Source: Rhipicephalus microplus
Taxonomy: Eukaryota > Arthropoda > Arachnida > Ixodida > Ixodidae
Reading direction: 5' to 3'
Length of the DNA: 64,000 nt
Assembly: GCF_043290135.1 (NCBI RefSeq)
Contig: NC_134702.1
Coordinates: 189,008,491-189,072,490, forward strand
Shown here: positions 24,856-61,433 of the stretch, piece by piece
Position numbering within the stretch: position 1 is the first letter of the stretch
Layout: every line of letters starts with the position of its first letter
Translations under genes and position numbers: made by a program
Notes under the pieces: model-generated
The model's database searches: none
Seen by the model: only the letters and a program-made list of their open reading frames with translations
What the model was told of the DNA's origin: nothing

Positions 24856-24957
24856 TTTTTTTCTTTATTGCCTGCTTCGCAAACAGTACAAATCAATATA
24901 AGAATACAGTGCAGTGTCACGTGTAAAAGTGCTGTCACATCTTCCAGCACATGGGGG

Positions 24958-27900
24958 TTAAAAAGGCAGACGCTTTATGCCGACCAACTTATCTAAACAT
25001 GGCAACCACTCTGGCTTATCTTGTGCCTCGTATGCAGTCATCAAATACTGTACACTTTCTATGAAGTACTCTCGAGCGGGCCGGGGATTCACGTCTACGT
25101 TTCGCACTGCCATCCGTGTTCGCCACACACTGTGAAGAACCAATACCATGAACATATCGTAGGGCACACCGCCTACATTTATGACTGGCAAAAAACGGAT
25201 GCCATACTGTGTAACTGGCAGCTCTTTCTTCAGGGTCCTTTGAAGGATGTCCCAGAGAAAGACTGCATCGGTACAGTCTAGAAAGATGTGGTCAACTGTC
25301 TCAAGTTTTCTGCAGATAATGCAATCAACTGACGGGACGAATATTCCTTTTTTCTCGGAGCCATGGATTGGTAGGGAGTGTGCCGCTGTGAAGTTTGAAA
25401 AATAATGTCTTCATTGATGGTCTAATTGGCATCTTTTTTTCACTCTTTTCAAGACGTCATCCCCGGGCCCATTAGGGTACAATGTTCTATACAGAGGCTC
25501 TGGCAACATGGTTTCTACAAGGTCCTTGTACAGTCTCTTTCGCGAAACCCTAGAGAGATACTCCATCGAAAATCGCACTCTCAATATTTCCACAGCAGCA
25601 ATCACTTCTTTCATGTACCCCTTAGGTCTTTTTGTCACCCCATTGACAGTGGTTACAATGAAATCAGGCAAAAAATGGGACAGCCGCACATGTATCAATG
25701 TTCTCAAAAAACGATCATCTTGATCTCGTAAAAAAACAAACCTAGATACTATCTGTCTCAGGAACAAGTGTACAAGACCAAGCCCCCCACTTTTCACAGA
25801 ACGGAACAGATTTGTTCGGCTTGTCCTTTCCCACGTGGACGCCCAGATAAACACTGCGATCACTCTGTGTAGCTTTTGTACAGCAACACGTGGCATGAAT
25901 AGAACTTGTAAAACATACCATACTCGTGAAATAAGAAATATGTTGCTCACTGTTGACCTCGTAAACATTGAGAAATCGCGCCCACCCCACGTTTTTGTCT
26001 TGTCTCTTAGTTGCTGTCTCTTGTTTCCAATATTCTGTTGTGTCTCTGTAGTGTTGGAGAGGTACCCCTAAGTACTTGTCAGGTATAACCTTCCATGTAA
26101 TGCTTTCAAATATTGATGGTGTGTTCTGCCAATTTCCGTGCCATATTCCAAGACATTTACTCCAGTTGACTCTACTATCAGTGCAATCACAGAAGAATTT
26201 CACATCGTTTAGTGCTTCTCTAATACTCTCCCGATCTTCGCAGAACACAGCAATATCGTCGGCGTAACTAAGTATTTTGACCTCTGCAGACATCAAATGA
26301 AACCCCCGCACCTGATCATTCTGTATCACTTTCTGGCATAGAGGTTCTAAATAGATAGCAAAAAGCAGTGCTGATGCAGGGCACCCTTGTTTTACACTCG
26401 ATAAAACTTGTATATTATCACTAAGCTGTTTGTTTATTACAATTTTTGTAGTGCATCCCGTGTACGCCATTCGGACCCCTTCCAACACCACAGACCCTAT
26501 ATTGACATAGTCAAGAATGCTGAAAAGTATGTCATTGTTCACGCGGTCAAATGCCTTCTCGAGATCGATTTGTAGCATAGCTACTTTACCGTCAAACTCC
26601 TCGCAGCATTCTAACATATTTCGGGCTATATGAATGTTCGTCATAATTGTTCTGCCTTTTATGCCACAAGTCCGATGTGGTCCAACTATTTTTGTAATCA
26701 CTGTTTGAATTCGCCTGGCCAAAACACCCATGAATATTTTGTAGTCAACATTCGCTAGGGTTATGGGTCTGTAGGATGTGACGGACAGCTGTTTCCTGGG
26801 ATCTTCAGTTTTTGGGATTAACACGATGTGTGTTCTCCGAAAAGATATTGGCAACTCTTTCCTCTCGTATGCCTCATCGAACACATTCCACAAAGCTTCT
26901 GCCACAAGATTTTTAAATTTCTTATAGAATGCTACACCTAGTCCATCTGGACCGGGTGTTTTACCGTTTTTCATTTTTTCAATGGTGATTTCGATTTCTC
27001 TGACCGAGATGGGTGCTTCTAGTCTCGCTTTTACGTCATCCTCAAGCTTCGGCATAAGTGACAAGAAACGCCGACTATACGTACTCGTGTCCGCTCTGAC
27101 GCCTCCCAACAGTTCTTGGAAATATTCCACAAACGCGTGCTCAATCTCGGTTTTATCTGTGGTGACTTCATTTTTGTGTTCTATCGCCCTTATCTCGTTT
27201 CTTGTCGCGTAGCTCTTTTCATCTGTGACGGCACGTTTTGTGGGAGCCTCGCCACACCATAATCTTCCTGCGCGTGCGCGTACCACCGCTCCTCTGTACC
27301 TTTCGGTATCTACGGCTTCTAATTCTTGTTTCACTCTTCTTATTTCTTTACTGCGCTCCCCTGGTTGCGCGCATTCTTGACATAGCAAAAAATCAAGCTC
27401 ACATTGCAGTTGTCATTCTTTTTTCAGGTTAGTGCGTTTTATTGACACTGATTTTCCAATTGCTTCTATTTTTACTTTTTCCTTGAAGCACTCCCATGTG
27501 TAAATTGAACTACTTGCGTCACCTTTCGCCACTTCTTTTATTTCCTTTTCAGCATTTTCTACAAACTTCTCATCCTCGAGTAGCTTTTCATTTACCTTCC
27601 AGAGTCCCCAATTGAATTTGGGCTTTTCTTTTTTATTAATGGTGAACATTACTAGACTATGGTCACTAAATGAAACATTCTTCACTGCGTAGCCCTGGCA
27701 CATAGGAAGCAGGGACGTAAACACGTATGCTCTGTCAAGTCTAGCTCTACTGTTGAGCTGGTAATGCGTATAGCGAGTACCCTGCGCCAGTACATAGCCC
27801 ACGTCGTCCAAGTTCCGCTCACGCGTCATTGAATCCAATACCAAGGCACTAGAGTCACGTACAAAGTTTTCACATGCCCTGTCTTCGGCATTACACGCAC

Positions 27901-28354
27901 AGTTGAAATCGCCTAGAATTATAACTGCCTTCTCGCATGATAGATACGTATCGAGACTTTCGAAGAATATTTTCCTATCTTGTTGTCTATTTGGCGCATA
28001 TACGCACACAACGCGCCAACTAATGCCGGAAAGAAGAAAATCACATGGAATTAATCGCCCTTCATTATCACTGTGTACACTTTTTTCGACAATGCCAACT
28101 GTGTTCCTTATAAATAGAAGACATCCGCCTGAAGTATCTACAGAATGACTCACACATATATTGTATCTGGAGCGGAAGTTCAAAAATATGGTGTCCATCT
28201 GTTCTTCAGATTCAATTTTCGTTTCCTGCACAGCGGCGATATCAACGTCATTTTCAAGAAACAAACGACGTAACTGATACTGTCGCCTCTTCGAGCGTAA
28301 ACCTCTAACGTTAAAAGTTGCGACGCGTAAGGCTGACTCTATATTGAAAGCCAT
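24958..28354 (-). pseudogene. LINE A ORF2 (endonuclease-reverse transcriptase), frameshifted
   Basis: Open pieces in order: APE endonuclease at 27413-28354 (FNVRGL, VQETK, GDFNC, SFSDH); reverse transcriptase at 25742-27388 (GKTPGPDGL, SYRPITLANVDYKIF, DLEKAFD, QGCPASALLF, SYADD); post-RT region at 25411-25968; and a C-terminal piece at 24958-25191. The CCHC segment (CIICRK...DHIFLDC) lies near 25.26-25.33 kb in another frame. Frame changes fall near 27.41, 25.97 and 25.41 kb. The motif C and palm residues survive, but no single frame encodes a full protein, so this copy could not mobilise itself. Confidence 0.88.
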
Positions 28355-28537
28355 GATTTTTGTTTAGGGAAGGGAGTACAAAACACAGTGTTTACTTTAG
28401 GTGAACGTTTCTAAAAAACGGCTTTAGTTTTACTGAAAATTTTGCGGCAATCGGTCCAGGTTTTACAGAGGCATGGTGTGCGTAAACTCCGCTCACTTAC
28501 GGGTTACTTTCCATCCGGAAAAAAGGCACAAAAAAAC

Positions 28538-29737
28538 TCAAGCCCCAGGAAGCTTTTGCGAAGGCTGTCTGGCCTCCGCCCGTGGATTAGTCTGCAAGTT
28601 CGGCCGTGGCTTCAACGTTGGTCGCCTCATTCCTATGGTTTTTGCTGGTGGTTCTTCTCGACCAACGTCTCCGGAGGTAGTGAAGTCTTCCCCAACAATG
28701 TCTCTTGGTCGCTTTCCAGCTAGTCCACTGCCTGCGTTGTCGCTGATTTCCATGTCGTCTTGCAGTGTGTCTGCGTCGCTGGGAGCCTTCACAGTCGGCA
28801 GGTGCTGTTCTGGCTTGTCTGTCGTTATCGGTTTTTCTGGCTCTGGTTCGGATGCCTTGTTCTCGACCTTTTCATTGTCCATCCTACTAGGCCTGCTCAG
28901 TTTCACCAATTCTGGGGTCACCTCTTCCTTCCTCGCAGTCGCGCTCGCTGCCTCTTCAGCTTCATGCTCATCCATTAACAGCTCTGCGTGGTCGTTGCCA
29001 CTCGGAGGTTCGGTGACGCTGGCATTAGACAACGTGCAGTCGTTCTCCTCGTGGCCAAATCTTCGGCAGGCACCACAGCGTGGCACACGGCAATCTCGCC
29101 GTATGTGCCCGTTTGCTCGACAGCGTAAGCACACTGGCGCTCTGCCCGGAACAACCACCAAAGCTTGCTCACCGCTTACGTTCACTTGGTGAGGCAGGTC
29201 TTCAATTTTGACGCCCACTTTCAACCGAAGTGTCACAATACGGGTAGTGGAGCCTTTTTCGCTGATGCCGTTTACACGCCACCTCTCTCTGTTGACGTCA
29301 ACCACTTGGCCGTACGGCTCGAAAGCACGTCGCACATCCTCATCGAGAACATTGTGCAGCAGCCAGTGTACTTTCATACGCACATCCTGGTTTGCCGGAT
29401 CAATGACAAGACAGCGACAATTTTTTACCTTGATATCGCCTTGCGATAGAATCGTCTTGACAGCGTCCCTGTTCTTGAACGTTACCGCCCACACGTGGCT
29501 CATCCTATATGCCCCCAAAGCAACCACTTCGGGGAGCAGTCGCAGGCTGGCCAAGGTGTCACGGAAATCTTCCACTCGATAAGGTCGGGCTCGTACGTCA
29601 GCGTGCAGAAAAACCGTATTTAAAACAATTCGTCCTGTAGGAAGGGTTGGCAACACAACTTGATATTCCTTATCGTCATCAAAAGACCTATTTCCGCAGC
29701 TAGTATCTGCCGCAAACGCCGCTCCTACGGAGCACAT
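28538..29737 (-). CDS. LINE A ORF1: RRM-like / double CCHC nucleic-acid-binding protein (399 aa)
   Basis: Gag-like ORF1 protein that would bind LINE RNA and form the ribonucleoprotein used for target-primed reverse transcription. The N-terminal half has an RRM-like region (GAYRMSHVWAVTF at about 76-88, then VRRAFEPYGQV). It is followed by two CCHC knuckles C-x2-C-x4-H-x4-C at 203-216 and 221-234. The C-terminal third is acidic and low complexity, and ends in a basic tail. The ATG at 29737 is only 40 nt from the element 5' end and aligns with the ORF1 starts of the other copies. Open throughout although the neighbouring ORF2 is ruined. Function is inferred from family architecture. Confidence 0.85.
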   Translation of the reverse strand: MCSVGAAFAADTSCGNRSFDDDKEYQVVLPTLPTGRIVLNTVFLHADVRARPYRVEDFRDTLASLRLLPEVVALGAYRMSHVWAVTFKNRDAVKTILSQGDIKVKNCRCLVIDPANQDVRMKVHWLLHNVLDEDVRRAFEPYGQVVDVNRERWRVNGISEKGSTTRIVTLRLKVGVKIEDLPHQVNVSGEQALVVVPGRAPVCLRCRANGHIRRDCRVPRCGACRRFGHEENDCTLSNASVTEPPSGNDHAELLMDEHEAEEAASATARKEEVTPELVKLSRPSRMDNEKVENKASEPEPEKPITTDKPEQHLPTVKAPSDADTLQDDMEISDNAGSGLAGKRPRDIVGEDFTTSGDVGREEPPAKTIGMRRPTLKPRPNLQTNPRAEARQPSQKLPGA

Positions 29738-29777
29738 GATTCTTGCGTCCGACGCGCGTGAGTGCCGACGAAAGAAT

Positions 29778-29795
29778 CCACTGAGCTACACCCCC
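29778..29795 (-). pseudogene. tRNA-Ala 5' stub upstream of LINE A
   Basis: tRNA nucleotides 1-18 including box A, the upstream copy of the 17-bp target duplication. It directly precedes the LINE 5' end. Confidence 0.9.
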
Positions 29796-30070
29796 GTTAC
29801 ATCTGGAGCACCCATTAACGAGTTTCTTGGTGCTCATCAGCTTGTTCTAACAATAAAGTAATCAATTAGTTGAAATAAACAAAATCATCTCGTCATTGCC
29901 GGCTGATACAGTTTTTTTATCATTGAGGAAAGCCGTATATTTCTATAGTCAAAGAAAATGGCAGCGCTGTTCAACAAAATGTATTTAATGTTATGCGCAC
30001 CGGTAACTCGTGGTGCCGTAGTATTTCAACAGGCAATATAGAAAGATACCGCTAAAGTCGAGAGCAATTT

Positions 30071-30141
30071 GGAGGTGCCGGGGTTTGAACACGGGACTTC
30101 TCACATGCAAAGCGAGCGCTCTACCACTGAGCTACACTTCC
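30071..30141 (-). tRNA. tRNA-Ala-like copy 73, GGAAGTG acceptor
   Basis: T-stem mismatch at 52-62; only T3 as terminator. Likely dead. Confidence 0.65.
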
Positions 30142-30416
30142 GTTACCTTTAGAGCACTCATTAACGAGTTTCTTGGTGCTCATCAGCTTGTTCAAACAAT
30201 AAAGTAATCAATTAGTTGAAATAAACAAAATCTACTCGTCATTGCCGGCTGATACAGTTTTTTCATCATTGAGGTAAGCCGCATATTTCTTTAGTCAAAG
30301 AAAATGGCAGCGCTGTTCAACAAAATGTATTTAATGTTATGCGCACCGGTAACTCGTGGTGCCGTAGTATTTCAACAGGCAATATAAAAAGATACCGCTA
30401 AAGTCGAGAGCGATTT

Positions 30417-30487
30417 GGAGGTGCCGGGGTTTGAACCCGGGACTTCTCACATGCAAAGCGAGCACTCTACCACTGAGCTACACCCCC
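30417..30487 (-). tRNA. tRNA-Ala(TGC) copy 74
   Basis: T loop TTCAAAC, full T stem, G10-U25; T5. Confidence 0.91.
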
Positions 30488-30762
30488 GTTACCTTTAGAG
30501 CACTCATTAACGAGTTTCTTGGTGCTCATCAGCTTGTTCAAACAATAAATTAATCAATTAGTTGAAAAAAACAAAATCATCTCGTCATTGCCCCCGTATA
30601 CAGTTTTTTCATCATTGAGGTAAGCCGCATATTTCTTTAGTCAAAAAAAATGGCAGCGCTGTTCAACAAAATGTATTTAATGTTATGCGCACCGGTAACT
30701 CGTGGTGCCGTAGTATTACAACAGGATATCAAAAAAGATACCGCTAAAGTCGAGAGCGATTT

Positions 30763-30833
30763 GGAGGTGCCGGGGTTTGAACCCGGGGCTTCTCACATGC
30801 AAAGCGAGCGCTCTACCACTGAGCTACACCCCC
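30763..30833 (-). tRNA. tRNA-Ala(TGC) copy 75
   Basis: T loop TTCAAAC; variable arm AAGCC; T6. Confidence 0.92.
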
Positions 30834-31108
30834 GTTACATCTGGAGCGCTCATTAACGAGTTTCTTGGTGCTCATCAGCTTGTTCAAACAATAAAGTAAT
30901 CAATTAGTTGAAATAAACAAAATCATCTCGTCATTGCCGGCTGATACAGTTTTTTCATCATTGAGGAAAGCCGTATATTTCTATAGTCAAAGAAAGTGGC
31001 AGCGCTGTTCAACAAAATGTATTTAATGTTATGCGCACCAGTAACTCGTGGTGCCGTAGTATTTCAACAGGCAATATAAAAAGATACCGCTAAAGTCGAG
31101 AGCGATTT

Positions 31109-31179
31109 GGAGGTGCCGGGGTTTGAACCCGGAACTTCTCACATGCAAAGCGAGCGCTCTACCGCTGAGCTACACCCCC
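31109..31179 (-). tRNA. tRNA-Ala(TGC) copy 76
   Basis: T loop TTCAAAC; variable arm AAGTT; T5. Confidence 0.91.
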
Positions 31180-31454
31180 GTTACTTTTGGAGCACTCATT
31201 AACGAGTTTCTTGGTGCTCATCAGCTTGTTCAAACAATAAATTAATCAATTAGTTGAAATAAACAAAATCATCTCGGCATTGCCTCCTGATACAGTTTTT
31301 TCATCATTGAGAAAAGCCGCTTATCTCTATAGTCAAAGAAAGTGGCAGCGGTGTTCGATGAAATGTGTTTCATGTTATGCGCACCGGTAACTCGTGGTGC
31401 CGTAGTATTACAACAGGATATCAAAAAAGATACCGCTAAAGTCGAGAGCGCTTT

Positions 31455-31525
31455 GGAGGTGCCGGGGATAAAACCCGGGACTTCTCACATGCAAAGCGAG
31501 CGCTCTACCACTGAGCTACACCCCC
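31455..31525 (-). tRNA. tRNA-Ala(TGC) copy 77, C56 lost
   Basis: T loop TTTTATC lacks C56, which is needed for box B and for the G19-C56 contact; T6. Confidence 0.75.
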
Positions 31526-31800
31526 GTTACATCTGGAGCACTCATTAACAAGTTTCTTGGTGCTCATCAGCTTGTTCTAACAATGAAATAATCAATTAGT
31601 TCAAATAAACAAAATCATCTCGTCATTGCCGCCTGATGCAGTTTTTTCATCATTAAGGAAAGCCGCATATTTCTATAGTCAAAGAAAATGGCAGCGCTGT
31701 TCGATGAAATGTATTTCATGATATGCGCACCGGTAACTCGTGGTGCCGTAGTATTACAACAGGATATCAAAAAAGATACCGCTAAAGTCGAGAGCGCTTT

Positions 31801-31871
31801 GGAGGTGTCGGGGATAAAACCCGGGACTTCTCACATGCAAAGCGAGCGCTCTACCACTGAGCTACACCCCC
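31801..31871 (-). tRNA. tRNA-Ala(TGC) copy 78, C56 lost
   Basis: As copy 77 plus a C49-A65 mismatch. Confidence 0.72.
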
Positions 31872-32146
31872 GTTACATCTGGAGCACTCATTAACAAGTT
31901 TCTTGGTGCTCATCAGCTTGTTCTAACAATGAATTAATCAATTAGTTCAAATAAACAAAATCATCTCGTCATTGCCGCCTGATGCAGTTTTTTCATCATT
32001 AAGGAAAGCCGCATAATTCTATAGTCAAAGAAAATGGCAGCGCTGTTCGATGAAATGTATTTCATGATATGCGCACCGGTAACTCGTGGTGCCGTAGTAT
32101 TACAACAGGATATCAAAAAAGATACCGCTAAAGTCGAGAGCGCTTT

Positions 32147-32217
32147 GGAGGTGCCGGGGATAAAACCCGGGACTTCTCACATGCAAAGCGAGCGCTCTAC
32201 CACTGAGCTACACCCCC
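32147..32217 (-). tRNA. tRNA-Ala(TGC) copy 79, C56 lost
   Basis: As copy 77. Confidence 0.75.
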
Positions 32218-32492
32218 GTTACATCTGGAGCACTCATTAACAAGTTTCTTGGTGCTCATCAGCTTGTTCTAACAATGAATTAATCAATTAGTTCAAATAA
32301 ACAAAATCATCTCGTCATTGCCGCCTGATGCAGTTTTTTCATCATTAAGGAAAGCCGCATATTTCTATAGTCAAAGAAAATGGCAGCGCTGTTCGATGAA
32401 ATGTATTTCATGATATGCGCACCGGTAACTCGTGGTGCCGTAGTATTACAACAGGATATCAAAAAAGATACCGCTAAAGTCGAGAGCGCTTT

Positions 32493-32563
32493 GGAGGTGC
32501 CGGGGATAAAACCCGGGACTTCTCACATGCAAAGCGAGCGCTCTACCACTGAGCTACACCCCC
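32493..32563 (-). tRNA. tRNA-Ala(TGC) copy 80, C56 lost
   Basis: As copy 77. Confidence 0.75.
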
Positions 32564-32838
32564 GTTACATCTGGAGCACACATTAACGAGTTTCTTGGTG
32601 CTCATCAGCTTGTTCTAACAATGAATTAATCCATTAGTTCAAATAAACAAAATCATCTCGTCATTGCCGCCTGATGCAGTTTTTTCATCATTGAGGAAAG
32701 CCGCATATTCCTATAGTCAAAGGAAATGGCAGCGCTGTTCGATGGATTGTATTTCATGATATGCGCACCAGTAACTCGTGGTGCCGTAGTATTACAACAG
32801 GCAATCAAAAAAGATACCGCTAAAGTCGAGAGCGCTTT

Positions 32839-32910
32839 GGAGGTGCCGGGGATTGAAACCCGGGACTTCTCACATGCAAAGCGAGCGCTCCACCACTGAG
32901 CTACACCCCC
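32839..32910 (-). tRNA. tRNA-Ala(TGC) copy 81, 8-nt T loop
   Basis: GGGGGTG acceptor with G3-U70 kept; extra U in the T loop; T6. Confidence 0.75.
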
Positions 32911-33185
32911 GTTACATCTGGAGCACTCATTAACGAGTTTCTAGGTGCTCATCAGCTTGTTCCAACAATAAAATAATTCAGTAGTTGAAATAGACAAAAC
33001 CATCTCGTCATTGCTGCGTGATACAGTTTTTTTATCATTGAGGAAAGCCGCATATTTCTATAGTCAAAGAAAATGGCAGCGCTGTTCGATGAAATGTATT
33101 TCATGATATGCGCACCGGTAACTCGTGGTGCCGTAGTATTACAACAGGATATCAAAAAAGATACCGCTAAAGTCGAGAGCGCTTT

Positions 33186-33256
33186 GGAGGTGCCGGGGAT
33201 AAAACCCGGGACTTCTCACATGCAAAGCGAGCGCTCTACCACTGAGCTACACCCCC
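33186..33256 (-). tRNA. tRNA-Ala(TGC) copy 82, C56 lost
   Basis: As copy 77. Confidence 0.75.
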
Positions 33257-33531
33257 GTTACATCTGGAGCACTCATTAACAAGTTTCTTGGTGCTCATCA
33301 GCTTGTTCTAACAATGAATTAATCAATTAGTTCAAATAAACAAAATCATCTCGTCATTGCCGCCTGATGCAGTTTTTTCATCATTAAGGAAAGCCGCATA
33401 TTTCTATAGTCAAAGAAAATGGCAGCGCTGTTCGATGAAATGTATTTCATGATATGCGCACCGGTAACTCGTGGTGCCGTAGTATTACAACAGGATATCA
33501 AAAAAGATACCGCTAAAGTCGAGAGCGCTTT

Positions 33532-33602
33532 GGAGGTGCCGGGGATAAAACCCGGGACTTCTCACATGCAAAGCGAGCGCTCTACCACTGAGCTACACCC
33601 CC
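33532..33602 (-). tRNA. tRNA-Ala(TGC) copy 83, C56 lost
   Basis: As copy 77. Confidence 0.75.
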
Positions 33603-33881
33603 GTTACATCTGGAGCACACATTAACGAGTTTCTTGGTGCTCATCAGCTTGTTCTAACAATGAATTAATCCATTAGTTCAAATAAACAAAATCATCTCGT
33701 CATTGCCGCCTGATGCAGTTTTTTCATCATTGAGGAAAGCCGCATGCATATTCCAGTAGTCAAAGGAAATGGCAGCGCTGTTCGATGGATTGTATTTCAT
33801 GATATGCGCACCAGTAACTCGTGGTGCCGTAGTATTACAACAGGCAATCAAAAAAGATACCGCTAAAGTCGAGAGCGCTTT

Positions 33882-33953
33882 GGAGGTGCCGGGGATTGAA
33901 ACCCGGGACTTCTCACATGCAAAGCGAGCGCTCCACCACTGAGCTACACCCCC
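33882..33953 (-). tRNA. tRNA-Ala(TGC) copy 84, 8-nt T loop
   Basis: Duplicate of copy 81. Confidence 0.75.
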
Positions 33954-34227
33954 GTTACATCTGGAGCACTCATTAACGAGTTTCTAGGTGCTCATCAGCT
34001 TGTTCCAACAATAAAATAATTCAGTAGTTGAAATAGACAAAACCATCTCGTCATTGCTGCGTGATACAGTTTTTTTATCATTGAGGAAAGCCGCATATTT
34101 CTATAGTCAAAGAAAATGGCAGCGCTGTTCGATGAAATGTATTTCATGATATGCGCACCGGTAACTCGTGGTGCCGTAGTATTACAACAGGCAATAAAAA
34201 AGATACCGCTAAATTCGAGAGCGCTTT

Positions 34228-34298
34228 GGAGGTGCCGGGGATTGAACCCGAGATTTCTCACATGCAAAGCGAGCGCTCTACCGCTGAGCTACACCCCC
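34228..34298 (-). tRNA. tRNA-Ala(TGC) copy 85
   Basis: T loop TTCAATC with U49-G65; T6. Confidence 0.9.
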
Positions 34299-52091: not shown

Positions 52092-52153
52092 CGTGATGAG
52101 AGAAAGCCGAGCGAAAGACGCTTACCTTACCAACACCTAAACCTCTGTGCGGC

Positions 52154-52170
52154 CGACGCTCAAGGCGTCG
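52154..52170 (-). promoter_or_regulatory. Hairpin over the LINE D ORF1 stop codon
   Basis: CGACGC-loop-GCGTCG, 6-bp stem and 5-nt loop, with the TGA stop spanning the loop. The sequence differs from LINE E but position and shape are alike. Confidence 0.4.
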
Positions 52171-52584
52171 TCCCGTCGCCGCCGCGTGAAAGCGACGACG
52201 AACGCAGGCGGCCAGCACCCCGAGACTTTTTGGAGCCAGCCACTCGCCACTGCCCTTGATCTTCCTGGGCCAGACGCTGCTGGGACGCCGCGTCTCCCTC
52301 ATTCAGGCGTCGCTTTACTGGCGTAGCTTCAACTGTATCCGTGTCCGAAGTAGCGTCGGACCGTCACCCCCGGAAGCTTTTCAGGCCTGCGCGTCACGTG
52401 ACGTGACGTCGACGACGTCACATCGCGCCGGCCGGCCGGCCGCCCTTCGCTGGGTGGCTGCGCCAGCCGCGAGCGCCCTTCACGCCTACCGACTCGGGCG
52501 AGGTTCCTTGACACCATGTCCGCACGATTTATCACGGTATCCATTGATTGTATGGTTTAACGCGCCGACGCAACGCAGGCGATG

Positions 52585-52774
52585 AAGCGCGCCGTAGTGG
52601 AGAGCTCAGGATCAAGTTTTACTACCTGGGAATCTTTATTGTGTGCCGAAATCTCGTACACACGGGCGTTTTTGCTTTTCGCCTCCATCAGAAATGCGGC
52701 CGCCGCAGCCGGGTATCGAAACTGCGCCCTAGTGCTCAGCAGCGCTACGCCTTAGCCACTGAGCCACCGTTGCG
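52585..52774 (-). mobile_element. tRNA-derived SINE (tick Ruka-like), within the P-like transposon
   Basis: The minus strand begins GCAACGGTGGCTCAGTGGC, a tRNA-like head with box A TGGCTCAGTGG and a box-B-like TTTCGATACC. It is followed by the body with GATGGAGGCGAAAAGC, CGCCCGTGTG and CCCAGGTAG, ending near CTCCACTACGGCGC. This order resembles the abundant tRNA-headed SINEs of hard ticks from memory of that family. Exact ends and target duplication not resolved. Confidence 0.7.
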
Positions 52775-53458
52775 GGGGAACTTATCAAGGTATCAAGAAA
52801 TAATGAATATCGTGAATGGAATAATGCGTATTTATTTATCACAGCCAGACGCCGTCTGTACAAATATCACAGTGCACATTGTTCTCGGTCCAGGCAGACG
52901 ACAGGCAACACAAGATGTTGCCCTTAATGCTGAAAATATGCCAAAAGTACAAAACACAATATCTTGCCACATAAAACTCAGAAAACAAAACAGATTATAA
53001 CAGCAAAAACATCCCCGAGCTTTGGAACAGAAAAAGCACACTTTCATTTAAATTGTAGGTTAGAGGAAAACATACCATTCGTTTATCATAGTAGCAGTAG
53101 CAACACAAGGTATCAGGTTCAAACACTTGCCAAAAAATACAATACAAAAGAACACTGGTGACTAAATTGTGGTCCACAGCATGATAAATGACAGAAACAA
53201 AAGTAATTGTACTGCCACAGGTAGGTGCATGTCCTAGGGAAAAAATCAAACAAAAATCTAAGAAAAAAAACAAATCACAGTGCACAACATGTCTGTACAC
53301 AGAGTGCACAAGGAAAGTGTACACAGCTTAGGTACCAAAACGGACTGTACAACTGCTACAGTGGGCACCGAGGCAGTTCGAGTTAAAAAAAAAGAAAAAA
53401 AGTACAGCACCTTTAAAAGCTAACAACTTGTAAAGAGATACAAAACTGGAAACAAGGC
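52775..53458. other. Non-coding 3' part of the P-like transposon
   Basis: A/T-rich, with short A tracts and no recognisable protein motif on either strand. It lies between the THAP stop and the SINE, where a transposase catalytic domain would be expected in a full element. Confidence 0.6.
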
Positions 53459-54631
53459 TCAAACAAGGGAATGTATTGCTTGAGCCAGGTGGCAATAAGT
53501 GCAGCGCTCCTCAGACAGCATCGACAGGTTGTTCAAAATTTCCAACAAGGAACTTACTTTTTGAACTGAGTCTGGTACAACAGCGCTACCAAGGTTCTTG
53601 ATTGGTGAACCTTGATAGCAGGCAAAGACTTCAAGGTTTGCAAACACGGTCAATGACGCATTCAAACAAGGTTCACGATAGTCGATAATGTTCAAAAACA
53701 TGGAGCACTCTTCTTTATGAATCACAGTCCACTTTGGAGACACTGACTCCCCTTGCAGGCGAGCCCTTAGTTCTTCGAGGGACGAAAACCGGTCTCGTTT
53801 TTGCTCCGCTTCATATGACGCCAGCGACTTTTCTACAGCACGGGCGAGTTGGGAGGCTTCTTGTCGGCTCCTCTTGGCGTCAGGGGTTTCTCTCGTGCTC
53901 TGGTCTCGTACTGATAGGTAGGACGGACAGCCGGAAAATACCGTTGGGACAGATCCAGGACGCAACCGTGGTACTGGGAGTGCAACTTCAATAACTCTCC
54001 CTGTCCTTGGATCCGTCTACGATGTCGTCTTCTCAATGCATGAAGCGTCGAAATGATTCGCGCACACCTGCAAAAACGTTTCAAGAACGTCTGAGACGCC
54101 ACTTCTCAAAAGAAAAAAAATGCGCTCCCGTTTGCATGACCGCGTTTACAGTCCGTGTAGCTAAAACAAAGTCTACCTACGTTTCGCAAGCATCTAAATA
54201 AAAGCGCTGCGCTAAGCGGTACAAGCAACATGAAAGGAAACACGGGAGCGTGATGTCACCGCACTCCACGAAGCGCTTCCACCGAGAGCTTGCAAGAATG
54301 GACGACACCACGGCACTGTTAGTGAACAAAGCGCAGCTGAGCATCCTTGCTGCGAACGCTGCTGGCGTCAGCGCTTCGCGAGGCCCGGCGGCCACAAGCT
54401 CAAGTATTTCCCATCATAGGTGATTTCTACCCGAACAAGCAACGACAAGCTAAGAACAGGAGCATCTCAAATTCTTACCTTAGTGCACGAAGTCGGCACG
54501 AAGTCCTTCCTAGGAATGGCGCGTAGCCATTGTTTGAGAGCGTCGGCGTCTTTAGGGAAGGAAAACACTTGTATCTTCTTTCCTGTTTTGTAGTTGCCGG
54601 TGCATCCGGGTACACAACACTTATTCGGCAT
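53459..54631 (-). pseudogene. THAP-domain gene of the P-like transposon, two exons, one in-frame stop
   Basis: Exon 1 (54479-54631, 51 codons) starts MPNKCCVPGC and carries the first zinc ligands of a C2CH THAP domain. It ends SCTK at a splice donor, AAG|GTAAGA. After a 411-bp intron (54068-54478) with acceptor TTTTTGCAG, exon 2 begins VCANHF, supplying the C-x2-H pair. A TAG at 54017-54019 interrupts the frame. The frame then continues with RLRPGSVPTVFSGCPSYLS, a typical post-THAP segment, and an E/R-rich probable coiled coil, ending at 53459. About 254 residues in all, far shorter than a THAP9/P transposase, with no RNase-H-like core. It would bind DNA at most. Splice sites are inferred from consensus only. 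Confidence 0.82.
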
Positions 54632-55848
54632 TGTCGCATCACTCCAGCATCACGCACGGAAACGAAATCTCCGCAAAACAACAACGGAAAGCAACAAACG
54701 TGAAACACCGTCAACACCACGCCGCCGAACCGTCACCACCGCCGCCCGTGCTGCGCTCGCTGCCGCTGCGGCTTCCCCGAGAGTCGGCCGGCCGGAAATG
54801 ACGTCAAATTGCTGGGCGCAGGCCTGAAAAGATTTTCCGGGGGTGACGGTCGGACCCGATGACTGGTTCAGCCTTGTGCTGGGTCTCGCTTTGAGTCGAA
54901 CGCCGTTGCGTTGGAGTGCCCGTAACCGTATTTCCATCTGCGTCTTTCTTAGGTGTCTCCATCTTTCTCTCGCTGGTCGCCACTGCATGAGACGCCGCCG
55001 CTCCTGCCTTCGACGCCGCGGCCCTCTCTGCTTCCTCTTCATCCATGAGCAATTCACTGTGGTCGGCATTTGTTGCTCGACTTGCTGCACTGGCATAGGA
55101 ACGGGTACAGTCCGCCTGCTCATGCCCAAAAGCGCGACAACCAGTGCACCTGGGCACCCTGCAGTCGCGACGAATGTGTCCCGTGTTCCGGCAACGCAGG
55201 CAAAGCGGCGCTCTTCCTGGCACGACCACCAGTGCCATGCCGCTCCCGAGACGCATCTGGTGGGGTATGCGATCCGTAGTAACGCCTTCTTTAAGTAATA
55301 TTCGAACGAATCTTGTGGTTGACTCAACTCCTTCGAAGTCTTCGTCTCTCCACTTGTCGCTGATGACTTCTTTTACTTCACCGTACTCCCGGAAAGCACG
55401 CCGTACAGTCTCTGCGTTGACGTCAAAGGCTACCCAATGCAACTTGAGACGCACCTCTTGCCTTTCTGGGTCGACGACGACGCAAGGCTGGTCTTTCACG
55501 GAGAGTAGGCCAGCGTCCAGAAGTTTCTTCTTGGCTTCATCTGTCTTTATTTCAAGAAGCCAGACGTGCGACATCTGATACGCTCCTATGCCGCTTACCT
55601 CTTGAATGATGCCTAGTTCCTTGAGCGGCTTTCGGAACTCATTAATCCCGTACGGACGCGCTGCGATATCGCAGTGCAGAACCAACGTGCGTCTGAGTCC
55701 TTCTCCTGTGGGCAGTGGTGGCAGAATTAAACGGTAGTCCTTGGGAAGCGTTGTGCACGAGAAACCGCGGCCAGCGTCGGCCGCTGTAACAGCTCTTGAG
55801 GAGCCTGCCATCCTGCGTCCGCACGCGTCGGTGACCAGAAGCAGAATG

Positions 55849-55867
55849 ACCACTGAGCTACACCCCC
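55849..55867 (-). pseudogene. tRNA-Ala 5' stub upstream of LINE D
   Basis: tRNA nucleotides 1-19 with box A. Confidence 0.9.
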
Positions 55868-56142
55868 GTTACATCTGGAGCACTTATTAACAAGTTTCTT
55901 GGTGCTCATCAGCTTGTTCTAACAATAAATTAATCAATTAGTTGAAATAAACAAAATCATCTCGTCATTGCCGCCTGATACAGTTTTTTCATCATTGAGG
56001 AAAGCCGCATATTTCTATAGTCAAAGAAAATGGCAGCACTGTTTGATGAAATGTATTTCATGTTATGCGCACCGGTAACTCGTGGTGCCGTAGTATTACA
56101 ACAGGCAATAAAAAAAGATACCGCTAAAGTCGAGAGCGTTTT

Positions 56143-56213
56143 GGAGGTGCCGGGGATTGAACCCGAGATTTCTCACATGCAAAGCGAGCGCTCTACCGCT
56201 GAGCTACACCCCC
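56143..56213 (-). tRNA. tRNA-Ala(TGC) copy 99
   Basis: T loop TTCAATC with U49-G65; T7. Confidence 0.9.
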
Positions 56214-56486
56214 GGTACATCTGGAGTACTTATTAACGAGTTTCTTGGTGCTCATCACCTTGTTCAAACAATAAAGTAATCAATTATTGAAATAAACAAA
56301 ATCATCTCGTCATTGCCGGCTGAAAATTTTTTTCATCATTGAGGAAAGCCGCATATTTCTATAGTCAAAGAAAATGGCAGCGCTGTTTGATGAAATGTAT
56401 TTTATGATATGCGCACCGGTAACTCGTGGTGCCGTAGTATTACAACAGGCAATAAAAAAGGATACCGCTAAAGTCGAGAGCGCTTT

Positions 56487-56557
56487 GGATGTGCCGGGGA
56501 TTGAACCCGGAACTTCTCACATGCAAAGCGAGCGCTCTACCAATGAGCTACACCCCC
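56487..56557 (-). tRNA. tRNA-Ala(TGC) copy 100, complete tRNA rebuilt downstream of LINE E
   Basis: All five leading Gs are present right after the LINE E poly(A), so LINE insertion cost this gene no tRNA sequence. G4-A69 mismatch; D loop ATTGGTA; T6. Confidence 0.8.
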
Positions 56558-56641
56558 TTTTTTTGCTTTATTGCCTGTTTACAGGCGCATACATCAAACC
56601 ACAAGCAGAACAAAAACAAGCAGTAACAGTCCGACAGAAAC

Positions 56642-59600
56642 TTAAAATTCTCTAAGTGCTGCCAAGGGCTCCACCCTCGACAACCACTCAGGTAAAATCT
56701 CCTGAGTTTTCTGCAGCTCAACATATTGGGCCATACATTCACGGAAATACATTCGTGCAGGCCGTGCATCCTGATCGCGATAGAAACCCGCCATACGGGC
56801 TCGCCATAAACTGTGAAATCCACATAGCATAATCAAATCAAAAGGCATTCCCTTTTCGTCCACTATTGGCAGAAATCTTATACCATATGGATTTAAAGGT
56901 AATTCTTTCTGTAACGTCCTTTGAAGTACATCCCAAAAATATACTCCTTCCCAACAATGTAAGAAAACATGGTCAATATTTTCCGGTTTTTTACAGATAA
57001 GGCAATTTGTCCCCCAAGGTAAGTAAAAACCACGGTCTGCTTGAAATGTCCTGACTGATAGTGTACCTGTGTGCAGCTTGAAGAAGAAAGACTTCGCGCC
57101 AGGAGCCACTTGCATCCTCTTCACTCTTTTAAGCACATCTTTCCCTTCACCTCCATCGTACATGGCACGGTACAGCGGTTCAGGTAAAACAACATCGCAT
57201 ACATCTTTGTACAACTTCTTTCGAGTCACTGAAAACAAATATTCATTGGAAAATCTAACAGATAAAAACCGTACACTTAGAATAACCTCTTTAAGATACC
57301 CGCGCACAGCACCAGTCATCTCATGCGTGCTAACCACATATCCAGGTAAAGCCCGCGTCAGTCTCATTTGGCACACTGTACGTAAGAAAGGGTCCCTTGT
57401 GTAGCGAAAAAAAAAGAACCTATTTACGACTTGGCGTATGAAAAGATGTGTTAAACCAAGCCCTCCGTGTTTCACTTTTCGAAACAAATTAGTTCGACTG
57501 CATCTCTCCCAGTTCGAAGCCCACACGAATACTGCGAAGATACGATGGAACTTCTGTATGTTTGCCCTTGAACAATGCAATACTTGCATCACATACCAAA
57601 GTTTTGAGGCAAAGAAAAGATTACAGGCATTCGCCCTAGCAAACACTGACAGATGAGTACCGTTGCATCTATTAGCTTTCGTCCGGATTTCTTTCGCTTG
57701 TTCTTGCCAGTAGTTCTCATTATCTTTATAAAATTCCAGTGGCACCCCTAAGTACTTGACAGGTGTGGTCACCCATTTAACATTGGCAAAATAGTCTGGT
57801 TTTGATGACCACTCTCCAAGCCAGAAACCCAGACACTTTCCCCAGTTTACTAGACTGCCAGTTGCCTTGCCGAACCTTTTAACCACACTGATGGTAGTGG
57901 TAACACTATCTTGATCGATACAACAAACAGCCACATCGTCGGCATATGCCAAAATTTTAACTTCGGACTCTTGTAATCTATAGCCACGAATGCAACTGTT
58001 TTGAGCTATTGCTAAGCACAAAGATTCTATATATAAACTGAAAAGTAGGGGGCTCAGCGGGCAGCCCTGGCGAACAGAACGCTTTATGTTAATTGTATCT
58101 CCTAGCGTCTTATTGATTACCAGTCGGGTTGTGCAGTTCCGGTATGCCATAGATACTCCATCTCTGATTACAAAACCAACGTTGACATGGTCAAGAATGG
58201 AAAGCAGAAGGTTGTGGGAAACACAATCAAAAGCTTTCTCGAGATCAATCTGTAGAATGGCTACCCCTACTTGATTGGCATCGCTACACTCGAGCACACA
58301 GCGCATCTTGTGTATATTAGTCACAATGGAGCGACCCATAATCCCACATGTTTGGTGAGGCCCTACTAATTCTTTGACTACCCCTTGAAGTCGCCGTGCT
58401 AGTACTTTCATTAAAATTTTGTAATCACAATTAGTTAGTGATATCGGTCTATACGAAGAAACTAATTTTAACTTCTCCGAGTGTTCTGTCGTAGGTATCA
58501 AAACTGTATGTGCTTCACTAAAGGACCTAGGGAGGACATTAAGTTTATAAGCTTGATTGAAGACATCTGCAAGTACTTGGGATAATTCATTTTTGAACTC
58601 CTTATAAAACGAAGCACTAAGCCCGTCCGGCCCTGGAGATTTACCAGGATTCATTTTATCTATAGCCCTTTCTACTTCCGTCGGCGTTATAGATAGCTCT
58701 AAAGCTGATTTGGTGTTATCTGACAACTTCGGCATTCTGCTAAGGAACTCCTGCTTAAATTCCTCTGAATCAATGGGCGTGGCAGCGAAGAGTCCTTCGT
58801 AGTGTTTGCCAAACGCTCGTCCTATGCTCTCATTGTCCGAAACTTCGATAACGTTGACTTCAATGGCATCTATGTGATTTCGTCTGGCATGACTCTTCTC
58901 TAATCCAAGCGCTCGCTTCGTCGGGCGATCATCCACAGTCATTGATGCTGCTCTGGCTCGCACTAGCGCTCCGCGATAGCGTTCCTCCTCATATACCTCT
59001 ATCCTCTGTTTAATACTCCGCAAATCGTCACCATATACTCCAGGTTTTTCACATTCAAGAGCTGTTAGTCTCTCAAGTGTTCGTCTAAGCTCTTTCTCAT
59101 TCTTCTTAGATTCAAAAGATAAAACGCTAGATCTCTCTATTGCTTTTATTTTGATTCGCTGCTTGAATAGCTCCCATTCTTCTCCTATTTTGCCCATACA
59201 CTCTTTGTTAATATTACTTATTTCTTTAATAACTGATGCGCTAAAAGATTCATCCTTCAAGAGGTTAGAGTTCATTTTCCACTGTTCCCAAGAAAAGGCG
59301 TTCCTTTCTTTTTTTGACTCGATATTGCATTTTACAAGACAGTGATCGGAAAAGGAAACAGGGACAACATTATAACTGCTACACTGGGTTATCGCATCTG
59401 CAGTAAGGTAAAGTCGATCCAATCGGGCATTACTTGTGCCTTGAAAGTGGGTATACTTCACATCTCGGGAGCTATGCAAACACTCCGCAACATCTACTAA
59501 TTCGTGTTCAAAAATCACCTGTGCCAGAACATCACTGCTTCTATCTTTAACGTTGCGCCTGCTTGATCTATCACTTTCATTCAAGACACAGTTGAAATCA

Positions 59601-60046
59601 CCCACCAATAAGAGTTTCCTACCAGTACACATATGTTGTCGTAAATTGGAAAAAAAACCCGATCTTTCCTGGCCAATAGTTGGAGCATAAACACATATAA
59701 TGCGCCATTCAGTGTCACAATAAACAATATCACACCATACTACTCGGCCTGAAGAGCAGGAAAAGACATTTTCTATGACTAATCCTGGCAGTTTTCTAAC
59801 AAAAAGAACACATCCCCCTGATGTGCCTATGGCCTGGCTCACAGTGGCAAAATACCGTGATGTAAACTTAAGCACCATGCTCCCAGTCTCCTCCTCGCTT
59901 TCAACTTTCGTCTCCTGCACTGCAAGCACATCCAGATTTTCTTCCAATAACAACCGGTAGACTTGGCTTTGCTTCTTCTTTGAAGCCAAGCCTCTAACAT
60001 TCAACGTGGCGAAGCTAAAAGATACTTGAGGCGCCATTACAACCAT
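56642..60046 (-). CDS. LINE E ORF2: APE endonuclease-reverse transcriptase (1,134 aa)
   Basis: Makes the target nick and copies LINE RNA from it. Domains: APE-type endonuclease 1-240 with N16 (LNVRGL), E45 (QETK), Y120, D150 and N152 (GDFNC), D210 (RLDR) and SDH 233-235; linker 250-460; reverse transcriptase 460-790 with PGPDG 471-475, SYRPISLTNCDYKILMK 531-547, motif A D601 (DLEKAFD), RQGCPLSPLLF 659-669, motif C YADD 701-704 and KYLGVPL 764-770; C-terminal CCHC C1015-C1018-H1026-C1031. The GPDGL, DYKIL and YADD wording and the C-terminal CCHC place it in the L1/Tx1 group, not the R1 or R2 groups. No frameshift or stop. The endonuclease presumably recognises the 5' end of tRNA-Ala genes. Confidence 0.95.
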   Translation of the reverse strand: MVVMAPQVSFSFATLNVRGLASKKKQSQVYRLLLEENLDVLAVQETKVESEEETGSMVLKFTSRYFATVSQAIGTSGGCVLFVRKLPGLVIENVFSCSSGRVVWCDIVYCDTEWRIICVYAPTIGQERSGFFSNLRQHMCTGRKLLLVGDFNCVLNESDRSSRRNVKDRSSDVLAQVIFEHELVDVAECLHSSRDVKYTHFQGTSNARLDRLYLTADAITQCSSYNVVPVSFSDHCLVKCNIESKKERNAFSWEQWKMNSNLLKDESFSASVIKEISNINKECMGKIGEEWELFKQRIKIKAIERSSVLSFESKKNEKELRRTLERLTALECEKPGVYGDDLRSIKQRIEVYEEERYRGALVRARAASMTVDDRPTKRALGLEKSHARRNHIDAIEVNVIEVSDNESIGRAFGKHYEGLFAATPIDSEEFKQEFLSRMPKLSDNTKSALELSITPTEVERAIDKMNPGKSPGPDGLSASFYKEFKNELSQVLADVFNQAYKLNVLPRSFSEAHTVLIPTTEHSEKLKLVSSYRPISLTNCDYKILMKVLARRLQGVVKELVGPHQTCGIMGRSIVTNIHKMRCVLECSDANQVGVAILQIDLEKAFDCVSHNLLLSILDHVNVGFVIRDGVSMAYRNCTTRLVINKTLGDTINIKRSVRQGCPLSPLLFSLYIESLCLAIAQNSCIRGYRLQESEVKILAYADDVAVCCIDQDSVTTTISVVKRFGKATGSLVNWGKCLGFWLGEWSSKPDYFANVKWVTTPVKYLGVPLEFYKDNENYWQEQAKEIRTKANRCNGTHLSVFARANACNLFFASKLWYVMQVLHCSRANIQKFHRIFAVFVWASNWERCSRTNLFRKVKHGGLGLTHLFIRQVVNRFFFFRYTRDPFLRTVCQMRLTRALPGYVVSTHEMTGAVRGYLKEVILSVRFLSVRFSNEYLFSVTRKKLYKDVCDVVLPEPLYRAMYDGGEGKDVLKRVKRMQVAPGAKSFFFKLHTGTLSVRTFQADRGFYLPWGTNCLICKKPENIDHVFLHCWEGVYFWDVLQRTLQKELPLNPYGIRFLPIVDEKGMPFDLIMLCGFHSLWRARMAGFYRDQDARPARMYFRECMAQYVELQKTQEILPEWLSRVEPLAALREF

Positions 60047-60085
60047 GTGGAGGAGTTAGGCCCGGAGCATGGCGCTTACCTTGCA

Positions 60086-60106
60086 CGTCTAGCGCTACGC
60101 TAGACG
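60086..60106 (-). promoter_or_regulatory. Hairpin over the LINE E ORF1 stop codon
   Basis: CGTCTAGCG-TAG-CGCTAGACG on the minus strand, a perfect 9-bp stem with a 3-nt loop; the ORF1 TAG is in the 5' arm. B and C have the same place with an 8-bp stem and 5-nt loop. Possible role in termination-reinitiation between ORF1 and ORF2. Confidence 0.5.
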
Positions 60107-61392
60107 CCTCCAGGACCGTCCGACCGCCCGGTTTCACTGCACAGTATAAGAGAATTGTTTACAGCTTTTTTGTCCGTGGTGCCACCAGCTCTTGCTCTCA
60201 TGCTGGTGCGTCTGCCAGTCGGGGTCTTGGCCGGTGGTTCTTCCACGCTACTTGCACTGTTCTTGTCTGCCGTCTTCACAGGGTCTTCCAATGGTCTTTT
60301 AATGGCTGAAACGGCACCGCTGGGCCAAGAGACGCGGTTGGCGTTGCACGTGTTTCCTTCTATCTTCGTGTCGAGACCAACGCTACAGGAGGCACCATCG
60401 ACAACTTGGCCTTGCTCCGACGCATAGGCAGACGCTCCGTCTACTTCACAGCCTGCGTCTGTCACCGCATTGTCAGCTGTATCGGTCGATACAGCTGCAG
60501 AACCTGGTTGAGTGTCAACAGGTGCCGGTGTAGATTCGTCTACTGATGTTGCAGATGTGCAGTTCAAATTTTCTGCGACTTGATCTCCGCAACCTTCAGC
60601 CGCGTCCTCTGCCTCTGTCACGTCCATAATGTGCTTCGACGCATCTTCGGCCTCCGCTGACGCGGTCACTGCGGCGTACGAACGGACGCATTCCGCGTCT
60701 CCATGCCCGAAACGCCGGCAGCGCGAGCACCGAGGCACCTTACACTCGCGACGCACATGTCCTGTTCCGCTGCAACGCAGGCATTGCATAGGCCGACCTG
60801 GGGCTACCACTAAGGCTAACTCACCGGCGACTCGTATCTGATGAGGCAGGTCCTCGACTTTCATACCGCTTTTCAGCTTGATGAAAACGGTGCGGGTCGT
60901 CGAGTTCTTCTCATTAACTCCTTCCACACGCCAGCGTTCCCGGGTCACTTCTGTAACTTTCCCGAACGCTGCCAACGCCGTGCGGACATCTTCGTCCGAA
61001 ACGCCGTGTAACAGCCAGTGAAGCCGCAGCCTCACCTTCCGCTCCTGAGGGTCGATAACGAGGCAGCGGCGTCCTTTGACCTGTAGTTCTTTCAGATCAG
61101 TCATCCGTTTCGTCGCCTCCTGGCTGTTAAAGGTCACGGCCCACACATGGTTGATCTGGTAGGCGCCCAATGCAACCACGTCGGGAAGCAGTCGTTCCTT
61201 GTCCAGAGCGTCTCGGAAATCTTCGACCTTGAAAGGCCTCACACGAATATCACCGTGCAAAAACACTGTGTTCACAACAATACGTCCTGTTGGCAAATTC
61301 GGCAAGATGATCTCATAATCCTTGTTACTTTCGTTTGTAATGCTGTTTCCGCGGCCACCAAGGACCGCCTTTGCCGCTCCGCGGGAGCCCAT
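60100..61392 (-). CDS. LINE E ORF1: RRM-like / double CCHC nucleic-acid chaperone (430 aa)
   Basis: Would coat LINE RNA in the retrotransposition ribonucleoprotein. Residues about 26-150 form one or two RRM-like units (GAYQINHVWAVTF at 76-88, GRRCLVIDP at 107-115, LHWLLHGVSDEDVRTALAAFGKV at 124-146 as landmarks). Two CCHC knuckles follow at C204-C217 and C222-C235. The tail from about 240 is rich in Ala, Thr, Asp and Glu, probably disordered, with a short basic patch (GRRTSMRARAG) near the end. The start at 61392 is 41 nt from the 5' junction. The TAG stop lies in a 9-bp hairpin at 60086-60106, and ORF2 begins 54 nt on in another frame, so ORF2 translation needs reinitiation or an internal entry. 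Confidence 0.92.
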   Translation of the reverse strand: MGSRGAAKAVLGGRGNSITNESNKDYEIILPNLPTGRIVVNTVFLHGDIRVRPFKVEDFRDALDKERLLPDVVALGAYQINHVWAVTFNSQEATKRMTDLKELQVKGRRCLVIDPQERKVRLRLHWLLHGVSDEDVRTALAAFGKVTEVTRERWRVEGVNEKNSTTRTVFIKLKSGMKVEDLPHQIRVAGELALVVAPGRPMQCLRCSGTGHVRRECKVPRCSRCRRFGHGDAECVRSYAAVTASAEAEDASKHIMDVTEAEDAAEGCGDQVAENLNCTSATSVDESTPAPVDTQPGSAAVSTDTADNAVTDAGCEVDGASAYASEQGQVVDGASCSVGLDTKIEGNTCNANRVSWPSGAVSAIKRPLEDPVKTADKNSASSVEEPPAKTPTGRRTSMRARAGGTTDKKAVNNSLILCSETGRSDGPGGV

Positions 61393-61433
61393 GATTCCTG
61401 CGTCCGACGCGTGCGAGTGCCGGCGAAAGAATG

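Follow-up and report, generated by a model that had tools for sequence, protein, structure and literature searches.

The question raised by a tRNA-Ala gene array in the tick Rhipicephalus microplus is how five long interspersed nuclear elements (LINEs) came to lie at one position, and in one orientation, within its tRNA genes. The window, that is, the whole 64,000-nucleotide stretch analysed (C3:189008491-189072490 of the 3.26-Gb genome), contains 107 tRNA genes called by ARAGORN, all on the minus strand, of which 106 are Ala(TGC) and one has a Pro anticodon. They form a tandem array (211..63864, minus strand) with a unit of ~346 bp, the spacing found between most of the genes, which is interrupted by the LINEs. 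A first-pass annotation made from the sequence had proposed that these elements insert specifically inside tRNA-Ala genes by sequence-specific nicking at box A. Copies dispersed through the genome point to a broader answer, as they lie at the start of genes of several kinds transcribed by RNA polymerase III (Pol III). We propose that the elements, LINEs with an endonuclease of the apurinic/apyrimidinic (APE) type, form a group directed to the starts of Pol III genes in general, a reading to which we assign a probability of roughly 0.7.

The five elements, A to E, are on the same strand as the tRNA array and each is framed by two copies of a duplicated target. LINE A (24856..29777, coding frames broken) has its 5′ flank copy at 29778-29795 and its 3′ copy from 24855 downward; LINE B (34642..39518) has them at 39519-39535 and from 34641 downward; LINE C (43330..48205, frames broken) at 48206-48220 and from 43329 downward; LINE D (48567..55849, with a nested DNA transposon) at 55850-55867 and from 48566 downward; and LINE E (56558..61433) at 61434-61450 and 56541-56557, with one mismatch. 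The 5′ end of every LINE directly follows tRNA nucleotide 15-18, and the 3′ end carries AATAAA and a short A-tail followed by the tRNA start, where the run of five G has lost one G at the junction of A, two at those of B, C and D, and none at that of E. A tRNA is still called by ARAGORN at the 3′ end of all five. The duplication keeps a whole or nearly whole tRNA gene downstream of the element and leaves an extra gene start ahead of it. At the DNA level B, C and E share 98-99% identity and are probably array duplicates; the open reading frame 2 (ORF2) protein of D is ~55% and that of A ~46% identical to that of E. Three diverged lineages (A, D and B/C/E) with distinct identities imply at least three insertions in the window, and junctions and identities together confirm this part of the first-pass annotation, which had counted five LINEs, three lineages and three independent insertions at one tRNA-Ala site in one orientation.

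The array extends at least 100 kb past the window in both directions, and the joined 264 kb contain 506 tRNA genes by ARAGORN, 499 of them Ala, all on one strand. Further LINEs of the group in this stretch occupy the same tRNA site. They include one further lineage with ~34-40% identity to E over most of the aligned pieces, whose copies at 174-212 kb resemble duplicates of one another. Three more gaps in the array, at 188-191, 235-241 and 254-257 kb, hold other insertions. Lone array units with altered anticodons (Glu, Pro and others, by ARAGORN) are present at ~186-188 kb of the 264-kb stretch and at 41188-41259 of the window.

The group was then followed through the genome with loci picked by ORF2 protein match, best score first and blind to their flanks, which gave 109 loci outside the window array. 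ORF2 of E matches 41 loci genome-wide. Two of these lie in the window, and the remaining 39, for which the expected 5′ and 3′ junction regions were taken, divide into 26 loci of the E type and 13 of G, a sister lineage that is 62-63% identical to E. ORF2 of D matches 44 loci, one in the window, and 40 of the 43 outside it were sampled at the 3′ end and 20 at the 5′ end. A piece of ORF2 of A matches 78 loci, again one in the window, of which 37 belong to a homogeneous lineage, H, 57-58% identical to A; the 3′ regions were sampled at 20 of the 40 outside loci of the A type and at 10 of the 37 of the H type. A legible 3′ end was found at 103 of the 109 loci (E/G 38, D 38, A 17 and H 10), the remainder being E10, A8, D36, D37, A11 and A15. 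E10 and A8 are masked right after or near the tail. A masked N stretch starts immediately behind the LINE tail at L050, and at L175 it starts where the tail ends. The 5′ end was located at 32 of the 39 E/G loci and 19 of the 20 D loci, and the others may be truncated or may end beyond the sampled stretch. The targets of A5 and A6 were assigned by ARAGORN after the tail pattern had failed, and the tails of three to four E/G rows (4, 5, 9, 33) were trimmed by hand.

The dispersed copies decide whether all of these elements descend from one insertion that was spread by array duplication. B, C and E and the 34-40% copies at 174-212 kb do look like array duplicates, and the nearly identical flanks of E1 and E15 and of G25 and G27 suggest two further duplicate pairs, so that the 103 sites are not all independent. 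However, the copies differ in lineage, target gene, duplication boundaries and chromosome, and a single ancestral insertion is ruled out by dispersed copies that carry duplications of their own; of all the explanations considered here it has the smallest chance of being correct.

Pol III genes, rather than unrelated sites, adjoin 95 of the 103 legible 3′ junctions (E/G 34/38, D 34/38, A 17/17, H 10/10), and insertion at Pol III genes of different kinds is what characterizes the class of Pol III-directed retrotransposons represented by Ty3, TRE5 and NLTR-A. Forty-six junctions adjoin tRNA genes called by ARAGORN, which cover 15 isotypes (Ala, Arg, Asn, Asp, Cys, Glu, Gly, His, Ile, Leu, Met, Pro, Ser, Thr and Val). 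A further 44 targets are tRNA-like, 38 by an automatic test for the internal promoter boxes (box A ≥6/7 and box B ≥7/9) and six by reading (E1, E15, G34, D13, D28 and D35). Four targets, all of D copies, are 5S rRNA genes (Rfam RF00001, E 4.6e-21 to 9.1e-20), and one, of an E copy, is a signal recognition particle (SRP) RNA gene (RF00017, E 3e-45, from model position 1). For A and H together, 23 of 27 targets are ARAGORN tRNA genes of many isotypes and the remaining four are tRNA-like. Rfam itself calls a tRNA at the junction for 12/38 E/G, 12/38 D, 14/17 A and 9/10 H copies, the tenth H target being called by ARAGORN. At least nine loci are repeated tRNA-like genes with a common, often TATA-like upstream sequence, so the tRNA-like families may represent Pol III genes present in many copies rather than ordinary short interspersed elements. 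The E, D, A and H lineages each use several genes: E copies are found at tRNA genes of several isotypes and at the SRP RNA gene, and D copies at several tRNA isotypes, tRNA-like genes and 5S genes. In all 95 Pol III targets the LINE is oriented in the direction of the gene. The strand of the first nick follows from target-primed reverse transcription, which is established for LINEs, and for a LINE that reads with the gene and uses this mechanism the first nick would be in the Pol III template strand.

These results divide the earlier proposal. Insertion of APE-type LINEs of diverged lineages at one tRNA position, by independent events, stands; restriction to tRNA-Ala is rejected, given that dispersed copies also entered other isotypes, tRNA-like genes and the SRP and 5S genes. 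Likewise, the genome search that had been suggested, with ORF2 of E and collection of the junctions, did return tRNA gene starts but not nearly all tRNA-Ala. What the targets have in common is that a Pol III gene starts there, and nicking specific for box A of tRNA-Ala is not supported.

The position of insertion is sharply defined. At 48 of the 51 sites with both ends known, the duplication is 14-18 nucleotides with at most one mismatch (14 nucleotides at 7 sites, 15 at 9, 16 at 20, 17 at 11 and 18 at 1). Relative to nucleotide 1 of the mature tRNA, the nick in the 44 ARAGORN targets other than A6 and A16 has an offset of 0 or 1 in 29 and lies within 3 nucleotides in 42. At least five lineages (E, G, D, A and H) agree on the target position, as does the 34-40% lineage in the array. 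At the 5S targets the flank starts at about nucleotide 5, placing the nick near +4/+5, and the flank in the SRP RNA gene starts, by eye, ~4 nucleotides after what we take to be the usual RNA start. Transcription of yeast tRNA genes starts ~10 bp upstream of mature nucleotide 1, according to the account in PMC5911963. If the tRNA start lies some nucleotides upstream of nucleotide 1 in the tick as well, the nicks in tRNA, 5S and SRP genes would all be at roughly one distance from the start.

No strict recognition sequence is present at the nick. Over 41 distinct sites, sequence content is ≤0.17 bit at every one of the 12 upstream positions; at the first downstream base an A cannot be scored, being indistinguishable from the tail. 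The box A and B test is passed by 54 of 76 E/G/D flanks, with no hand trimming, compared with 93 of 7,600 shuffled flanks and with 17 of 1,470 windows from eight other reverse-transcriptase loci, a control that consists of sequence windows. Distal flanks pass at 3 of 32 (5′) and 3 of 37 (3′), several of these loci being in tRNA clusters.

Several observations weigh against a general Pol III address. Eight of the 103 targets misfit or are unclear (E12, E16, G33, G36, D1, D20, D23 and D30). E12 interrupts a tRNA-like gene at its anticodon region. E16 (an E copy) and G33 (a G copy) entered one and the same target, which lies in an unassigned repeat (GTA[C/A]ACACGT..), and the target of E16 has TATATAAG ~35 nucleotides upstream of the nick. 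G36 lies at the first base of a ~100-nucleotide sequence whose ends pair and which is preceded by a TATA-like box and followed by a T run; by eye only, this sequence appears Y-RNA-like. Comparison of the unclear targets with Rfam gave no credible match, with none up to E 1 in one set and one weak bacterial small RNA (E 0.27) that was taken as chance. The nick of E19 is 8 nucleotides upstream of a tRNA-His gene and that of D28 is displaced by ~11 nucleotides in the downstream direction, and in the 264-kb array a LINE at ~80-84 kb has the usual 5′ junction and a 3′ junction ~40 nucleotides upstream of the tRNA, which may reflect a long duplication or a later rearrangement. Moreover, 90 of the 103 targets are tRNA or tRNA-like and so have a box A, and some sequence content is found downstream of the nick (0.74 bit at the first base, mostly G; 0.42 at +8, 0.37 at +10 and 0.33-0.64 at +17 to +20, with 0.64 at +17), so that target choice may be partly by sequence.

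The predominance of tRNA and tRNA-like targets would be expected if the element's proteins read DNA, chiefly the tRNA box A (TGGCNNAGTGG), and cut at a fixed spacing from it, the other targets being look-alikes. Consistent with such reading, box A starts 3-9 nucleotides after the nick in 29 of the 30 E/G sites that pass the box test, and the SRP RNA target has TGGC ~6 nucleotides after the nick. The control region of 5S genes, however, is internal and far from the first 20 nucleotides, and the four 5S targets, which have no box A near the start, weaken the case for box A as the sole determinant. G36, E16 and G33 also lack it, and the nick-anchored sequence content is low. We therefore consider direct reading of box A unlikely, although it is the strongest of the alternatives to an address set by the Pol III start.

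Nicking of the presumed template strand close to the start, across promoter types and with weak sequence preference, would also be produced by a ribonucleoprotein (RNP) that makes no specific contact and simply attacks open DNA, the Pol III open complex, an R-loop or a nucleosome-free start being the most exposed. In that case the starts of RNA polymerase II (Pol II) genes should also be hit, yet the targets that are not recognised Pol III genes number only the eight listed above, and positions as sharp as 42 of 44 within 3 nucleotides would not be expected; this explanation appears somewhat less probable again than the reading of box A. Random insertion, with survival of copies only at harmless multicopy Pol III genes, is very improbable. 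Multicopy targets do tolerate insertion and the duplication does keep the gene whole, but selection of this kind cannot produce one orientation and a nucleotide-level position, nearly identical copies (ORF2 92-98% identical to D; the homogeneous H lineage) occupy the same sites, and a genome of 3.26 Gb offers ample harmless DNA elsewhere.

The 5S, tRNA and SRP genes have different internal promoters and are entered at approximately the same place near the start, as a tether to the initiation complex would bring about. A precedent is provided by TRE5-A, which uses tRNA and 5S genes and whose ORF1 protein binds TFIIIB subunits (PMC5911963, in the part of the text available to us). We envisage that the element would be transcribed by Pol II from its own 5′ end, where a promoter is predicted from the sequence (see below), and that its RNP would be brought to the Pol III initiation complex, most likely through contact with TFIIIB or Pol III. 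The APE endonuclease would then nick the template strand, at positions that the junctions place at about nucleotide 1 of the mature tRNA and about +4/+5 of the 5S and SRP genes, and the poly(A) end of the RNA would be reverse-transcribed from the nick. The other strand would be cut 14-18 nucleotides downstream, a position that in tRNA genes usually falls inside box A or where it ends, as the duplications show. The resulting duplication would leave a complete Pol III gene directly downstream and the target reusable. With the whole gene left in place, an insertion would be expected to cost the host little, and the same gene could be hit again. Such reuse of a rebuilt tRNA target was seen once, at G37 (L103). 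By eye, its 5′ flank shows the AATAAA and A-tail that end an earlier LINE of the group, and directly after them comes the tRNA-Ala start that G37 entered. The rebuilt genes may be expressed.

Both reading frames are open in LINE E. ORF1 (60100..61392, minus strand; 430 amino acids) has a zinc-knuckle pattern only below the Pfam cut-off, and ORF2 (56642..60046, minus strand; 1,134 amino acids) contains an APE-type endonuclease, a reverse transcriptase and a weak zf-RVT domain. Exo_endo_phos and RVT_1 are above the Pfam cut-off in ORF2 of both E and D, and zf-RVT is below it in E and above it in D. The closest solved structures (PDB) to ORF2 of E are those of the LINE-1 ORF2 protein. LINE B retains an open ORF1 (38185-39477, minus strand) and an ORF2 that is frame-shifted near its start, and ORF2 of LINE D (48954-52091, minus strand) is frame-shifted near its end. 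Within ORF1 of LINE D lies the nested DNA transposon, ~2.5 kb in length (52355-54855 of the window). Its terminal inverted repeats, of ~40 bp, are 90% alike; a 7-8-bp direct repeat (GGTCCGAC) is also present, and the element may be akin to P elements. The group consists of APE-type non-long-terminal-repeat (non-LTR) retrotransposons of the L1/Tx1 kind, with the endonuclease preceding the reverse transcriptase, a poly(A) end and a target-site duplication.

The 5′ end of LINE E (61388..61433, minus strand) has ATTC at +1 and GGACG at +28 to +32. The element start is constant within a few nucleotides in 41 copies, of which nine are from the array and 32 are the dispersed E/G copies whose 5′ end was located. 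Positions +1 to +4 are ATTC in 38 of the 41, and the full TCATTC initiator is matched in 18, the first two bases of this motif being partly derived from the target. RGWYV lies exactly at +28 to +32 in all 41, including lineages whose 5′ untranslated region is otherwise different. Promoters made of an initiator and a downstream promoter element (DPE) occur in several Drosophila LINEs, and the conserved positions suggest a predicted Pol II initiator plus DPE here also; as the 41 copies are related, this conservation is suggestive only.

In a reverse-transcriptase tree of 57 rows, a branch with 100/100 support separates a 20-row group, containing A, D, E, an array element at 75 kb, the 34-40% lineage and 15 relatives, from 33 L1-like rows. 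These include a 12-row vertebrate L1-like set (100/100, one row being unlabelled), so that the tick group and the vertebrate set are on opposite sides of the branch and do not group together. When the tree is rooted on a very long outgroup branch, the 34-40% lineage and two relatives move towards the other side (91/91), and strict monophyly of the group is therefore not supported by this tree. Members of the Tx1 clade include the zebrafish elements Dewa, Mutsu and Keno. No entry named Tx1 was present among the best 120 of 658 and the best 120 of 600 matches in protein searches with vertebrate relatives, nor among the best 120 of 289 relatives of ORF2 of E; the latter are mostly Sequence Read Archive assemblies, with one entry from Rhipicephalus microplus and one distant one from Ixodes scapularis.

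Taken as a whole, and with slightly less confidence than we attach to the Pol III address alone, we propose that this is an old, diversified and recently active group of animal LINEs that uses the Pol III initiation complex as its address across classes of internal promoter (5S, tRNA, SRP and perhaps Y-RNA-like genes). By cuts on either side of the gene start it would rebuild the target with each insertion and keep it open to further hits. It would thus be the counterpart of Ty3 among animal LINEs, flourishing in a lineage whose tRNA gene sets are greatly expanded. A Pol III address is known from yeast and amoebae and, as far as we have found, is apparently new for animals. In the compact genomes of those hosts, Pol III-directed retrotransposons have been explained as a means of gene avoidance (PMC5911963, PMC5006619, in the passages available). 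Here the same habit is found in a 3.26-Gb animal genome, with near-nucleotide precision, at several kinds of Pol III gene and with the entered gene left whole. The group offers a system for asking what guides a LINE endonuclease, protein contacts or DNA sequence, and might provide a tool for safe-harbour insertion. It may also bear on the expansion of tick tRNA genes, the sets of which are >20-30-fold larger than those of other Acari and insects by the account in PMC13105059: large Pol III arrays would have room for such elements, and an insertion that leaves the gene intact would cost little, with the order of events possible either way.

An animal LINE with an address common to Pol III genes was not found in the open full-text literature, of which partial texts were available (including PMC3160391 and PMC5014426); subscription papers and repeat libraries lay outside this search, so that a family name may exist. 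Among animal elements, the zebrafish non-LTR elements Dewa (tRNA-Leu spacer), Mutsu (5S) and Keno (U2) resemble the tick group in residing in multicopy small-RNA genes (PMC3706591), as do the planarian LIN15_SM (tRNA-Arg) and LIN25_SM (tRNA-Glu), which lie in tRNA genes and have been grouped with NeSL (PMC4640811). In the portions of these reports available, however, each such family uses one gene type and is described as sequence-specific, whereas single tick lineages use many tRNA isotypes together with 5S or SRP genes. Dada DNA transposons likewise target small-RNA genes, including tRNA-Ala in zebrafish, but are described as having a DDE transposase, duplications of 6-7 bp and one gene type per family (PMC3706591, PMC8869645).

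The closest parallels are the Pol III-directed elements of yeast and amoebae. Yeast Ty3 and Tj1 share the Pol III gene start as address (tRNA genes, and for Tj1 also 5S) but are LTR elements with an integrase that insert just upstream of the start and, in the text available, show no such duplication of the gene start (PMC5911963). The dictyostelid NLTR-A and TRE5, which are listed as L1 type, are, like the tick elements, non-LTR retrotransposons aimed at tRNA genes of many kinds (PMC5911963, PMC5006619). TRE5 is reported to insert 40-54 bp upstream of the gene and in the opposite orientation, unlike the tick group, in which the element follows the gene orientation and the nick lies at about nucleotide 1. 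NLTR-A, which inserts 2-6 bp upstream of the mature tRNA, comes near to the site found here. It is described as having an RNase H domain, and the hosts of NLTR-A and TRE5 are amoebae with compact genomes; in the tick the duplication includes the gene start itself, and the host is an animal with a genome of 3.26 Gb.

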